The notes under the pieces: model-generated | The model's database searches: none | Seen by the model: only the letters and a program-made list of their open reading frames with translations | What the model was told of the DNA's origin: nothing | Made by a program: the position numbers and the translations under genes | From: Bacteroidota bacterium | GTDB lineage: Bacteria > Bacteroidota > Bacteroidia > Flavobacteriales_D > Crocinitomicaceae | Length of the DNA stretch: 64,000 nucleotides | Direction: 5' to 3' | Assembly: GCA_006226425.1 (NCBI GenBank) | Contig: SBGX01000031.1 | Location: forward strand, 248,001-312,000 | Shown here: in pieces, positions 15,823 through 37,895 of the stretch | Position numbering within the stretch: position 1 is the stretch's first letter | Layout of the letters: each line of letters opens with the position of its first letter

Positions 15823-15857
15823 TAAAAATTGTCTAACTATTCTTATTCCCGAAGGCT

Positions 15858-16793
15858 TCACTTTGCAATTTGAAACAGTGTTAGAAAGCATGCTTCAATG
15901 ACTTTTGCCATGCGTTCTAAATCCAAATTTTCCAATTGATCACTATCCTTATGATATGACTTGTTTCTGTAAAATGCTGTATCTGTTATCATTAGGGCTG
16001 GAAATCCGAACTTCCAATAGTTGAGATGATCTGAAAAATCCACCCCGGTTAATGTGGCTGGTGCGATGAAACGTTTTGTTCGGATCTTTTTTTGTTTTTT
16101 GAACTTTCGGAAAAATCTTCGTTCAAATGCATCACCATTCAATTTTCTCACCAAAGTGATATAATTCCCACGGCTTCCATAAATCCCCTTGAGCATCCGC
16201 AAAGGATAGTCCTGTGTTTTTTTCTCATCTTTGAAGTACCCAATCATCTCAAGTACCACCATGCCTTTTACCGGGATATTCCGTTCATACAAATCATGGG
16301 CGTGGACATAACTTCCCATCTGTTCCGTCCTGAAAAATGGAGGCTCTTCTAGTGTATAAGCTACTAAATCAACCCGTTTTGAAAGATTTTTTCCCTGAAA
16401 TAAACGTGCCAATTCGAGCAAACCAGTCACCCCGCTGGCGTTGTCATCGGCTCCTTCCTGATCTCCACAAACATCGTAATGAGCTCCAACAATAATACGT
16501 TCCGCGTCTCTTGGACCAAAAGTGGCAATGACATTCCGGTACCGCTCGCCATGGACCAGATAACTCTGTTCATATACACTATCTGCCCATTTTGAAAATT
16601 CCTGGAGTATATAATCGGCGGTACGATCCAATTGTTTAACGTGTTTGTAGTTCCGAAATTGAGGTGTTTTTGTCAGGTTATGCAAGTGCTCCCTTAAGCT
16701 TCCGGGCATGACAACAATATTTTCCTGAGAAATTCCAAAACAGGAAAGCAATAAAAGAACTGCTAATAAGTGGATTTTCAGATTTTGATCCAT
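15858..16793 (-). CDS. M28-family zinc aminopeptidase, exported
   Basis: Secreted or periplasmic metallopeptidase of 311 residues. It has a signal peptide (IHLLAVLLLLSCFGISQ) and a catalytic M28 domain with zinc ligands in GAHYD, ADDNASG, the LEEPP glutamate pair, the LEMIGY acidic residue and the late histidine in NKSYHKDSD. Family members release N-terminal amino acids from peptides. The start ATG overlaps the stop of the upstream aminotransferase gene by one base (TAATG), so the two are translationally coupled. No sorting domain is present. Substrate preference cannot be read from sequence. Confidence 0.9.
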   Translation of the reverse strand: MDQNLKIHLLAVLLLLSCFGISQENIVVMPGSLREHLHNLTKTPQFRNYKHVKQLDRTADYILQEFSKWADSVYEQSYLVHGERYRNVIATFGPRDAERIIVGAHYDVCGDQEGADDNASGVTGLLELARLFQGKNLSKRVDLVAYTLEEPPFFRTEQMGSYVHAHDLYERNIPVKGMVVLEMIGYFKDEKKTQDYPLRMLKGIYGSRGNYITLVRKLNGDAFERRFFRKFKKQKKIRTKRFIAPATLTGVDFSDHLNYWKFGFPALMITDTAFYRNKSYHKDSDQLENLDLERMAKVIEACFLTLFQIAK

Positions 16794-34229: not shown

Positions 34230-35006
34230 ATGAAGACAAAAAAGGCAATTGTAGAAAATTGGTTACCTCGCTATACCGGAGAAAAACTAGAGAATTTTGG
34301 AGAGTATATTCTCATCTGTAACTTCCAAAATTACGTTGAAAAATTTGCCAAACAGCACGGTGTTCCTGTTGTTGGAATTGGAAAGCCAATGCAATGCGCC
34401 ACAGCCAACAACATTACGATCATCAATTTCGGAATGGGTAGTGCCTCGGCTGCGACCTGTATGGATTTATTATCTGCCATCAAACCAAAAGCCGTATTGT
34501 TCCTAGGAAAATGTGGCGGATTGAAAAAGAAAAATGCCGTTGGTGACTTTGTACTTCCAATTGCTGCTATTCGCGGTGAAGGGACCAGTACGGATTACTT
34601 CCCACCGGAAGTACCAGCCCTTCCTTCCTTTGCCCTTCAGAAGGCCATTTCCACCACGATCCGCGATATGGAACAGGATTACTGGACAGGAACTTGCTAT
34701 ACCACGAACCGACGTGTTTGGGAACATGACAATGAATTCAAAAAGTACCTGAATAAGATTCGTGCCATGGCCATTGATATGGAAACTGCAACCATTTTTA
34801 CGGTTGGTTTTGCCAACTCCATCCCAACAGGTGCACTCCTACTCGTTTCCGATCAACCGATGATCCCGGAAGGAGTGAAAACGAGTAAAAGCGACGAGAA
34901 AGTAACTTCCAAGTTTGTCGATATGCACCTGAAGATTGGAATCTCCTCGCTGCGTCAATTGATTGACAACGGTCACACCGTCAAGCATCTTCGTTTCGAA
35001 GACTAG
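34230..35006 (+). CDS. AMP nucleosidase (PNP/UDP phosphorylase family)
   Basis: A 258-residue enzyme that hydrolyses AMP to adenine and ribose-5-phosphate, adjusting adenylate pools. Motifs are FGMGSASAATCMDLL, VLFLGKCGGLKKKNAVGDFV, the phosphate/base region PIAAIRGEGTSTDYFPPE, TTNRRVWEHD and the ribose-binding AMAIDMETATIF. The start ATG 34230 gives MKTKKAIVENWLPRYTG, the family N-terminus. It lacks the extra N-terminal domain of E. coli Amn, as is usual for the Bacteroidota form. It converges on the MuiA-like gene with 3 bp between stops. Confidence 0.93.
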   Translation: MKTKKAIVENWLPRYTGEKLENFGEYILICNFQNYVEKFAKQHGVPVVGIGKPMQCATANNITIINFGMGSASAATCMDLLSAIKPKAVLFLGKCGGLKKKNAVGDFVLPIAAIRGEGTSTDYFPPEVPALPSFALQKAISTTIRDMEQDYWTGTCYTTNRRVWEHDNEFKKYLNKIRAMAIDMETATIFTVGFANSIPTGALLLVSDQPMIPEGVKTSKSDEKVTSKFVDMHLKIGISSLRQLIDNGHTVKHLRFED

Positions 35007-35009
35007 GAA

Positions 35010-37052
35010 TTACTCCAGGTAAATTCGCATTCCTTTTTTGGAATCAACTGAATAGTCGAAGCCGACTTTGTTTGTGCTTCCCTTTGGCACTGTCATCTCC
35101 CAGCTCAAAATCCCTGTTTGTGGATTCAATTTTGCTCCTTTGATGTCACCGTGCTTCACTTTAATGTCAGCATTCACCGAAATCGGAAACTGATCCTTGA
35201 TGATCAATGGAATTTCGGCTCCACCATTGTTGCGGGCGATAATTTCCCAGGCGATATCTACCTTCAGACGCGATCCGATATATTTTCGCTTACTGAGTTC
35301 TTTGACCCGGTTGCGCTCTAATTGAATCTTTTCGTCTTTCCCCATGGAAATGCTGAGTGTGTCACGTGTAGATTCGGTATCGATATAGGTCTCTCCGATG
35401 AAAGTTCCATCAAAATAGATATTGGCGGCGCCACTCAACAAATTTTTGGACTCCCATCCGTTGATTTGAGCCACCAAATAGACCGTTGGATCAATTTTAG
35501 GAACGGCATGATACTCATAGTTTGCTGGCATGTCATAATTCTGAATGGCTACCCGTTGCTCACTTCCGTTTCCTGCAATCGAAAACTTGGATTGGATGGC
35601 ATATTCTACTCTCAAATCCTTTGCCTCTTCTACAACCTCTACCTGATTCTGTCCTTCGCCATATCCGTCCAGTTGATCTTTCAGATCACGACGGCCTTTC
35701 TTTTTTCCTCTGACACCATTGACACTCTTCAACACACTTGCTCTTCTAGCACCTACTACCTGTACTTCTTCCGTTGCCATAGAACTTGAGGTAGCTGCAT
35801 CGTACATCGTATAGGTTCTCGAGCTTTCAATTTCCTTTGCAAGTTTGTCTGCCCGCCACTTATTGCGCTGCATGGTAACTGGCTTCCTGTCCATGAAAAA
35901 CTTCAAATAAGGAGCATTGATCACCAAGGTTCTATTTCGATATCCCATGAACGAAGCCACGAGGTTGCCCGGATTTTGAGGAACGTCTATTTCAAATTTC
36001 CCGGTGGCATCTGTCATGGCCGTTTTTGCTGGAAAATTCGAAAAGTAAATTTTAGCGAAAGGCATAGATTCTCCTGTTTTCAGATCAATCACCTCTCCCC
36101 TGATTCGCTGTCCGGCATAACTATATGCTTGATACGTCCTTTTCTGATCCAATTGATAACGATTTGGGGACCTATTATAATCAAGCATCCATGGTCTCAG
36201 TTCGACTTCGCTTGAATTCTGATAAGGTTCATTGGTCGATAGAATCAAATCTATTTTTTCCCAGTCAATCTCCGTTTCCTGACGAACCAGGGCCTTTGCT
36301 TCCAATTTTACCGGTGCACCAACACCTCCACTGCGTATATCATAATATGGTTCCCAGGAAGCTCGATCCGTCATATAATTAAACGTAAAATCGACTTTTC
36401 CTGCCTGCTTGACATCTGCCTCCACAACGATTTCTGAATAATGAATGATTGGTTTGCTTCGCTGCACCTCAATTTCCTGCCAAATTTTGTTCTTGCGATG
36501 ATTTAAATCCTCTAGTTGTTTCCCTAACTCACTTTCCTTTTGAGAAATCTCCATCATCCTCGCATGAATAAAGGAGTATGCTTCCTTCAACTCAGCCACT
36601 TTCACACCAGTCTGACTCCCTTTCAAGTCTGTATTTTTAGATAAAATCTCCCGGTCCATTCGCAAGATTTCGAAAGCATCTTCAACCCTGATGATCTCCA
36701 TGTCCAAATCATCCATTTTTTTATTCAAACGTGCTATTTCCTCATTACTAATACGTTCATCCTCAAAGTTTTTTCGCAAGGAAACAGATAAAATCGTCAG
36801 CGCGCCGGAGGCACGCAACTGAATTGAGTTGGGATCAATGTAATTGGTCAGTTTTGGGAATACCAATCGTTGCTTTCCAGCAGAAAGTTGCTGTTGAGCA
36901 ACCCGATTCAATTGAGCACCTTCCAAAAATAAAATAGCCCCCGATAATTTCGACTTAATATTTACCTCCTTGTTCTGGGCATGCAATCCACTCAATGATA
37001 ACAGCAAAACCACCAGACATTGACTCATTCTTTTCACGTTCATCTTTTTCAT
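35010..37052 (-). CDS. DUF4139/MuiA-like exported protein with inserted CarboxypepD_reg domain
   Basis: A 680-residue exported protein. A signal peptide (LVVLLLSLSGLHAQ) follows MKKMNVKRMSQC; MSQCLVV is an alternative start. The N-terminal DUF4140-like domain (about 30-110) leads into a coiled-coil (95-205), then the DUF4139 core with TFNYMTDRASWEPYYDIR and, near the end, IKHGDIKG-type and LNPQTGILSWEM strands. Between residues about 315 and 395 a carboxypeptidase-regulatory-like domain (IRGEVIDLKTGESMPFAKIY) interrupts DUF4139, a TonB-plug-like style common in this phylum. Members are named mucoidy inhibitor MuiA from a genetic effect; the biochemical role is unknown. No operon partner is evident. 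Confidence 0.87.
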   Translation of the reverse strand: MKKMNVKRMSQCLVVLLLSLSGLHAQNKEVNIKSKLSGAILFLEGAQLNRVAQQQLSAGKQRLVFPKLTNYIDPNSIQLRASGALTILSVSLRKNFEDERISNEEIARLNKKMDDLDMEIIRVEDAFEILRMDREILSKNTDLKGSQTGVKVAELKEAYSFIHARMMEISQKESELGKQLEDLNHRKNKIWQEIEVQRSKPIIHYSEIVVEADVKQAGKVDFTFNYMTDRASWEPYYDIRSGGVGAPVKLEAKALVRQETEIDWEKIDLILSTNEPYQNSSEVELRPWMLDYNRSPNRYQLDQKRTYQAYSYAGQRIRGEVIDLKTGESMPFAKIYFSNFPAKTAMTDATGKFEIDVPQNPGNLVASFMGYRNRTLVINAPYLKFFMDRKPVTMQRNKWRADKLAKEIESSRTYTMYDAATSSSMATEEVQVVGARRASVLKSVNGVRGKKKGRRDLKDQLDGYGEGQNQVEVVEEAKDLRVEYAIQSKFSIAGNGSEQRVAIQNYDMPANYEYHAVPKIDPTVYLVAQINGWESKNLLSGAANIYFDGTFIGETYIDTESTRDTLSISMGKDEKIQLERNRVKELSKRKYIGSRLKVDIAWEIIARNNGGAEIPLIIKDQFPISVNADIKVKHGDIKGAKLNPQTGILSWEMTVPKGSTNKVGFDYSVDSKKGMRIYLE

Positions 37053-37121: not shown

Positions 37122-37343
37122 TTACTTTTTGATCAAAGGATAGATTAATTTTTCCAATCCATTCTGCTTAATCTCCAGCATTTGTTCTAATTGCCTTCCC
37201 AATTTACCTTTTGGAAATCCCTTTTGTCTGTACCAAACCAGATAGGCTTCGGGAAGTTGAACCAGGTATTTTCCTTCATATTTTCCAAATGGCATCATGG
37301 CATTTGCCAGCTCTAAAAGTTCCTTTCTGGCCTGATCATCCAT
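37122..37343 (-). CDS. DUF3820 family small protein
   Basis: A 73-residue protein with the DUF3820 core MPFGKYEGKYLVQLPEAYLVWYRQKGFPKGKLG. The family is widespread and is sometimes labelled quorum-sensing-regulated virulence factor, without a known mechanism; it resembles the small domain found near some exonucleases. It is cytoplasmic, with no membrane helix. A weak AT-rich promoter (TATATTTT near 37355) lies upstream. Confidence 0.87.
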   Translation of the reverse strand: MDDQARKELLELANAMMPFGKYEGKYLVQLPEAYLVWYRQKGFPKGKLGRQLEQMLEIKQNGLEKLIYPLIKK

Positions 37344-37425
37344 CCGAAAAAATATATTTGTTTACCATTCAATCAATTATTTAAACACTTCAGGTTTTTG
37401 ATTTCGCAGCATGACCAGAGTCACG

Positions 37426-37433
37426 TATCTTTG
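37426..37433 (+). promoter_or_regulatory. -7 element TATCTTTG ahead of the candidate small RNA
   Basis: A perfect TAnnTTTG on the plus strand with no plus-strand gene following for 1.8 kb. A TTTG at 37397-37400 is 25 nt upstream, slightly too far for the usual spacer. Confidence 0.45.
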
Positions 37434-37552
37434 GTACATAGATAGTTAGTTACAAATCTAGTTTTATTGTTTTTGGTTGAAACCTGATTCTGTGTTTTTG
37501 AAGCGTTTTTTGGTTTGCGCGTGAGTGGTACACAGGATCAGGTTTTATTTTT
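37434..37552 (+). ncRNA. Candidate structured small RNA ending in a terminator-like hairpin
   Basis: Between the minus-strand DUF3820 and SUI1 genes a plus-strand unit is visible. It has the -7 element at 37426-37433, about 45 nt of AU-rich sequence, then a long hairpin and a T-rich end (TTTTATTTTT). The hairpin arms are AAACCTGATTCTGTGT (37480-37495) and ACACAGGATCAGGTTT (37530-37545), 16 bp with a 34-nt loop. The one non-Watson-Crick position is U-G on the plus-strand RNA but C-A on the minus strand, so the structure favours plus-strand transcription. No plus-strand gene ends nearby, so it is not an ordinary gene terminator. I do not recognise a known RNA family. Confidence 0.5.
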
Positions 37553-37895
37553 ACCCTCCTTTCTTCTTCACCCGATACCCCTGCTGACTCAACAAATCAG
37601 CAACTTTATCCCGAAAATTCCCCTGAACAATCACCTCGCCATTTTTGACACTTCCACCTACTCCACACTTGGATTTTAACATTTTCCCCAATTCCTTCAA
37701 ATCATCTTCCGTCCCTATAAACCCTTCGACGAGCGTCACCTCTTTTCCGCCTCTTTGCTTGTGATCCAGAGATACATACAAGTTCTGTTCGCCCGGAGGT
37801 AGAGTTTCCGCATCTTCTGTATTGTCGTCTTCGTATTGAAAGTCCGGATTAGTCGAATAAACGACATTCACCCGGTTTTTATGCTTTTTACTCAT
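37551..37895 (-). CDS. SUI1/YciH-family translation factor
   Basis: A 114-residue protein whose C-terminal ~80 residues form a SUI1/eIF1-like domain: QRGGKEVTLVEGFIG, LKSKCGVGGSVKNGEVIVQGNFRDKV and the ending LLSQQGYRVKKKGG. The family (E. coli YciH) can influence initiation fidelity or act as a stress-time inhibitor of translation. The N-terminus is acidic and variable. It overlaps the upstream GDPD gene by 8 bp, so the two are coupled. Confidence 0.93.
   Translation of the reverse strand: MSKKHKNRVNVVYSTNPDFQYEDDNTEDAETLPPGEQNLYVSLDHKQRGGKEVTLVEGFIGTEDDLKELGKMLKSKCGVGGSVKNGEVIVQGNFRDKVADLLSQQGYRVKKKGG

Follow-up and report, generated by a model that had tools for sequence, protein, structure and literature searches.

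The question raised by this locus is why a promoter element, an AU-rich 5′ part, a 16-bp hairpin, and a T-rich end should follow one another on the plus strand between two minus-strand genes. The initial annotation read them as a candidate small RNA; all four are present in that order in the window (the complete 64,000-nucleotide stretch analysed here, from a genome of 3.41 Mb that we place in the Crocinitomicaceae, Flavobacteriales), and its remark that no plus-strand gene ends nearby also holds, the nearest upstream one—encoding a PNP_UDP_1 protein—ending at 35006, 2.4 kb away. We propose that 37438–37552 encodes a plus-strand small RNA that occurs across the bacterial family, has its own promoter and terminator, probably has a LytTR-type regulator as its activator, and probably acts in trans; taken as a whole, we consider this reading likely. 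The conserved RNA, its strand, its promoter, and the register of the repeats upstream of it are well supported by comparison of genome sequences; which LytTR protein would act, the action in trans, the mode of contact, and the targets are points that we infer. The parts of the locus are:

37122–37343, minus strand: divergent QSregVF_b (PF12843) gene, a neighbour here that lies outside the conserved unit
37364–37372, plus strand: ACCATTCAA, first of the two 9-bp repeats in a tandem site of LytTR type, at register -62 to the -7 element
37385–37393, plus strand: second 9-bp repeat ACACTTCAG, at register -41; 12 bp separate it from the first repeat and 32 bp from the -7 element
37426–37433, plus strand: -7 promoter element TATCTTTG of the sigma-ABfr type, TANNTTTG or a near form in relatives
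37438–37552, plus strand: predicted small RNA of ~115 nt, its start placed from the -7 element and its end from the T-run
37459–37478, plus strand: conserved U-rich segment TAGTTTTATTGTTTTTGGTT, predicted to be mostly unpaired
37473–37478, plus strand: first UUGGUU motif, in the linker
37480–37495, plus strand: 5′ arm of the terminator-like stem
37510–37515, plus strand: second UUGGUU motif, in the loop
37530–37545, plus strand: 3′ arm of the stem
37543–37552, plus strand: T-rich 3′ end; many relatives, though not all, likewise have a T-run after the stem
37551–37895, minus strand: convergent SUI1 (YciH/eIF1-like) gene, Pfam PF01253, a frequent neighbour of the RNA

A DUF4139/DUF4140 protein encoded at 35010–37052 of the window carries an inserted carboxypeptidase-regulatory-like domain.

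The stem in the window consists of 15 Watson-Crick pairs and one U-G pair (U37489 with G37536), and can be extended to 18 pairs with a loop of 34. A simple terminator scan, restricted to loops of 3–8 bases, did not report it. Folding of 37438–37556 gives -33.1 kcal/mol (z -4.5) on the plus strand and -22.0 kcal/mol (z -4.7) on the minus strand, and on neither strand was any of 200 dinucleotide shuffles as good. Since both strands fold far below the shuffles, the hairpin is not due to chance, and folding alone does not fix the strand, which is fixed by comparison with relatives.

Two alignments were used for covariation, A3 (genera g1, to which the window belongs, and g18; 11 sequences) and A7 (43 distinct rows fitted to a covariance model). 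The A3 row of genome G003 lacks 17 nt of the 5′ end and has the stem complete. Compensatory changes in the two arms, which the initial annotation had put forward as a check, were found among these 11 sequences: 10 of the 15 pairs of the stem have changed on both sides, and pairing holds in 97.0% of 164 cells, against 27–42% of cells in controls with slid partners; none of 500 shuffles did as well on four measures, and 3/500 did on a fifth. All 14 modelled pairs show double changes in A7, where 97.8% of 595 cells are paired (0/500 shuffles on four measures, 11/500 on the number of pairs with double changes). When all types were aligned jointly with MAFFT the stems came out misaligned, and for alignment A2 RNAalifold returned no structure, so that the covariation rests on A3 and A7.

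The single U-G mismatch of the stem, which would be C-A on the minus RNA, had been taken as a sign of plus-strand transcription, and the same argument extends to the relatives: in the 11 sequences, 22 stem cells hold G-U pairs on the plus RNA that would be C-A on the minus RNA, two A-C cells point the opposite way, and 159 of the 164 cells are paired on the plus RNA compared with 139 on the minus RNA. Placement of the predicted RNA on the plus strand is thus well supported by the wobble pairs and the comparison with relatives. Relatives conserve the promoter and the leader core along with the stem, and the stem covaries, which bears out the plus-strand reading of the initial annotation.

In the window the stem is followed by a U-run on the same strand, as in an intrinsic terminator, and a T-run follows the stem in many members of genera g1, g10, g15, g17, and g18. 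No clean T-run stands right after the stem in six members of g5, g9, and g12 or in G018, and the T-run is weak in seven g11 members; an intrinsic terminator is therefore supported for many members but not for all.

The first 18 bases of TAGTTTTATTGTTTTTGGTT occur exactly in four of the five genomes of the window's genus and in none of 195 other genomes of the family. With one mismatch allowed, this leader pattern was found in 25 of 200 family genomes and its reversed control in 10 of 200, so little weight can be given to approximate matches beyond the genus. When the intergenic region was searched at nucleotide level against 59 genomes, most matches were short and looked like chance; those in G002, G003, and G004 proved useful. 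At the corresponding place beside SUI1, the congener G002 has TAGCTTTG, an identical TAGTTTTATTGTTTTTGGTT, a stem of other sequence, and a T-run; G003 and G001 have the RNA unit at other locations; and G004 (contig C31, locus L013) has kept the promoter and leader core away from SUI1, with a short, different hairpin in place of the long stem. Shared 21-mers in G030 and G032 were also considered and were read by eye as aspartokinase coding sequence.

A match to SUI1 is present in at least 187 of the 200 family genomes, and 78 SUI1 flanks were chosen from them by hand, with a bias to genera already showing the architecture. Thirty-seven flanks, from nine genera, were aligned and 41 were left out, although the hairpin of G155, one of the latter, is the same as that in G134. 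The large genus g22 contributed two of the 78 flanks, both lacking the architecture; among the genomes listed, g22 has no model match.

Two covariance models were searched against genomes. R1, trained on g1 and g18 only, gave a single match at E ≤0.1 in each of 42 of the 200 family genomes and none in the other 158, under strict filters that lose weak members. On held-out flanks it matched g17, g10, and g15 at E ≤0.021 and g5 at E 0.045–0.11, and these matches sit at the convergent place beside SUI1. R2, built from 44 sequences, matched 38 of the 78 flanks at E ≤1 (29 of them at E ≤0.001) and left 40 unmatched; 28 of the 38 are in its training set, and the 10 outside it have E-values from 6e-4 to 0.24. 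In the order-wide search at E ≤0.01, R2 found 31 of 299 genomes, 30 of them within the family and one weak match outside it (G327, E 0.005), and in the class-wide search 2 of 295, the genome of the window itself and, weakly, G465 (E 0.004). At E-values like those of G327 and G465 a few matches would be expected by chance, and the genome-wide searches were strictly filtered. A family-wide RNA, at one place per matching genome and with almost nothing outside the family, is accordingly well supported by these searches.

The g11 members (L033, L034, L134, L135, L144, L171, and L181) have a distinct stem and the loop motif TTTTTCATAGGGTTGGTTATTGGTTATAA, with one extra T in L033. They may represent a diverged type, weakly or not matched by the models.

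The initial annotation knew of no matching family. Rfam 15 agrees: neither the window nor any of 11 related loci has a match at the gathering score, and when the region was scanned with relaxed settings only a pair of weak matches turned up, each with E 2.6. By these comparisons, the candidate is a new small-RNA family of a known kind of RNA.

The promoter element TATCTTTG of the window fits both TANNTTTG and the refined -7 consensus TAHHTTTG described for this promoter type (PMC6847099). The predicted RNA has a promoter of its own, of the organism's main type, and the relatives carry TANNTTTG or a near form. Alignment on the -7 element of 55 upstream regions—the 37 aligned loci and 18 model or search matches—shows a 9-bp repeat of the form ACMGTTNAR conserved at registers -62 and -41 and, more weakly, a third time at -83; the -7 elements were hand-picked, partly by eye, and short regions were padded with N. 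These three registers, spaced by exactly 21, are the best of 100 offsets, with mean repeat scores of 7.04 (-62), 7.55 (-41), and 5.73 (-83) compared with an all-offset mean of 4.27 (sd 0.71), on sequences that are related and with a scoring consensus partly derived from the same loci. Compared with itself at period 21, the repeat in the 55 regions has an identity of 5.47 of 9, and none of 27 other periods exceeds 3.24; when one sequence per genus was used (n=9) the tandem peak again fell at -62. G002 carries ACATTTCAC twice; the window departs from the best consensus in both copies, ACCATTCAA having A and ACACTTCAG having C where the consensus has G. This upstream tandem repeat was not mentioned in the initial annotation.

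Direct repeats of 9 bp, mostly 12 bp apart and just upstream of the -35 element, are described as sites of LytTR regulators (PMC6193735), and the 55 regions match this, with two such repeats separated by about 12 bp and a period of about 21. The 32 bp from the end of the second repeat to the -7 element leave room for 4–11 bp before the -33 element, which is degenerate. That the tandem repeat has the geometry of LytTR-regulator sites, in a fixed register to the -7 element, is well supported by the alignment, and control of the RNA by a LytTR-type regulator is likely. The window's genome has 18 LytTR-domain matches; as LytTR proteins were found in all 13 genomes tested, their presence says little.

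Outside the promoter, the most constant sequence is UUGGUU, which is found in 37 of 39 RNAs and absent from two, compared with a mean of 6.9 and a maximum of 15 in 200 shuffles; 19 of the 39 have at least two copies. UUUUUGGUU is absent from 18 of the 39, and TTTTTGGT is invariant in 22 aligned rows. The U-rich segment of the linker is mostly unpaired in one predicted fold and partly paired in the fold of a slightly different stretch. UUGGUU would be the site contacted by mRNAs or a protein. A-rich translation leaders are reported for Flavobacterium johnsoniae (PMC6847099), which would suit a U-rich contact site. When pairing was computed for 44 genes of the window, however, leaders as a class paired no better than internal sites (p 0.92). 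Two of the 44 pair unusually well with the conserved segment, at -18.9 and -20.1 kcal/mol, an energy of -18 kcal/mol or better being seen in 14 of 4000 random windows; they belong to minus-strand genes at about 1243–2980 and 15857–16793, the products of which begin like exported proteins. These two leaders are possible targets on the energy calculation, as a lead found after the fact.

The same motif might instead serve mainly as a protein-binding decoy, the repeated UUGGUU titrating an RNA-binding protein rather than pairing with mRNAs. Both the wide sharing of the motif, with its repetition in about half of the RNAs, and the negative leader-pairing result lend this some weight, but a single short motif present once or twice would make a poor sponge, and the g17 and g10 members shown have it in the linker only. 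On balance we think a decoy unlikely, while keeping it in consideration.

The SUI1 gene invites a different explanation, that the RNA acts in cis on its convergent neighbour as an antisense RNA or by transcriptional interference. The initial annotation had observed that the 3′ end touches the SUI1 stop codon and had suggested such an action; the contact is real, the stop codon lying at 37551–37553 and overlapping the T-tail by ~2 nt, and orientation is convergent in all 38 R2-matched flanks (E ≤1, among the 78 hand-chosen flanks). The suggested action does not fare as well, because the spacing varies: the distance from stem end to SUI1 match is 0–196 nt among the 37 aligned members, ~0.7–1.6 kb in G063, G172, G076, G026, G159, G128, and G075, and ~17 kb in G023, while RNA and SUI1 are on different contigs in G001 and G059 and the RNA is on the other side of SUI1 in G003. 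Even in the window, the overlap amounts to only those ~2 nt. The tie to SUI1 is thus common but not fixed, which makes the RNA a unit of its own, and with such spacing a general cis role on SUI1 is very unlikely. The other neighbour in the window is no more constant, the QSregVF_b homologue of G002 being on another contig than SUI1.

Could the RNA be a divergent 6S RNA of this family, a sigma-factor mimic? Such an RNA would agree with the single copy per matching genome, with the long stem, asymmetric inner loop, and inner hairpin seen in some genera, and with the lack of any 6S-Flavo match above the cut-off in these genomes. The conserved central bubble of 6S RNA, however, is not seen in the aligned g17 and g10 members or in two of g18 (G153 and G205), all of which close on a loop of 4–11 nt. 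The 6S-Flavo searches gave 0/20 matches and then 1/100, below the cut-off, and matched 0/14 controls; with no working positive control they decide nothing and do not establish that 6S-Flavo is absent. We regard a 6S identity as highly improbable.

A short mRNA for a small protein is hardly credible either. Its best evidence is an identical 17-aa plus-strand frame in five of seven g11 members, together with short frames bearing MSPDF or MSPRF in g5, g9, and g12 members and a short frame in two of three g10 members; but no closed plus-strand ATG frame of at least 10 codons is present in four g1 RNAs including that of the window, frame length and reading frame vary between genera, and no coding frame is common to all 39 RNAs. 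That the hairpin is the terminator of the minus-strand SUI1 gene deserves almost no credence: it does lie directly 3′ of the stop codon of SUI1, and folding of the minus RNA likewise beats the shuffles, but no U-run follows it on the minus strand in the window—for which reason it can hardly be a SUI1 terminator—the wobble cells favour plus, homologues away from SUI1 retain the structure, and the promoter, leader core, and repeats would be left without a role.

The reading that we prefer remains that of a trans-acting small RNA, and it would work as follows. The sigma-ABfr promoter would direct plus-strand transcription of 37438–37552; activation would come from a LytTR-type regulator occupying the tandem 9-bp repeats, which end 32 bp before the -7 element; the RNA's own intrinsic terminator would end it, and the stem may also protect it; and UUGGUU, present in the linker and for many members in the loop as well, would make contact in trans, by base pairing to mRNA leaders or by binding to an RNA-binding protein.

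A further and more tentative idea, which we offer as possible rather than probable, is that this is an independent Bacteroidota LytTR/small-RNA circuit like AgrA-RNAIII or VirR-VR-RNA, in which UUGGUU silences a set of mRNAs. A signal would then act through a LytTR regulator on one conserved RNA, and through it on the silenced mRNAs, perhaps for secreted proteins. Going by the papers cited here, few small RNAs have been studied in flavobacteria. Because this one is family-wide, occupies one place per matching genome, and comes with a control site that can be read upstream of it, a circuit could be approached from either end, the candidate regulator class or the fixed RNA. If the LytTR link is true, a Gram-positive theme of regulator and RNA would extend to the Bacteroidota.

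VirR, of the Gram-positive VirRS-VR-RNA system, is a LytTR protein. In that system and in AgrA-RNAIII a regulator controls a regulatory RNA, as proposed here, and AgrA is described as having a LytTR-like binding sequence (PMC3673130). Both differ from the window RNA in phylum and sigma factor, and the likeness seen is one of circuit layout. 6S-Flavo (RF01685) is a flavobacterial hairpin RNA, with 108 model positions compared with ~115 nt for the window RNA; it has no match in the window at the gathering score or in the relaxed scan of the region, and its bubble is missing in several members. Rfp18 of Flavobacterium psychrophilum is also a conserved flavobacterial small RNA with strong predicted structure; compared by description, it has its predicted pairing region in a third stem-loop and is conserved in the genus Flavobacterium, and the main text of its paper makes no mention of SUI1 or LytTR (PMC9723704). 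FopS and GibS of Bacteroides thetaiotaomicron are likewise Bacteroidota small RNAs, and were compared with the window RNA by description, Rfam giving no match at the gathering score. FopS resembles the window RNA in its described layout, in which the conserved seed lies in single-stranded 5′ sequence and an intrinsic terminator hairpin comes after it (PMC11697453). It differs in its 14 paralogues of ~65–70 nt (PMC11697453), whereas the window RNA is found at one place per matching genome and has a long stem, often with a large loop.
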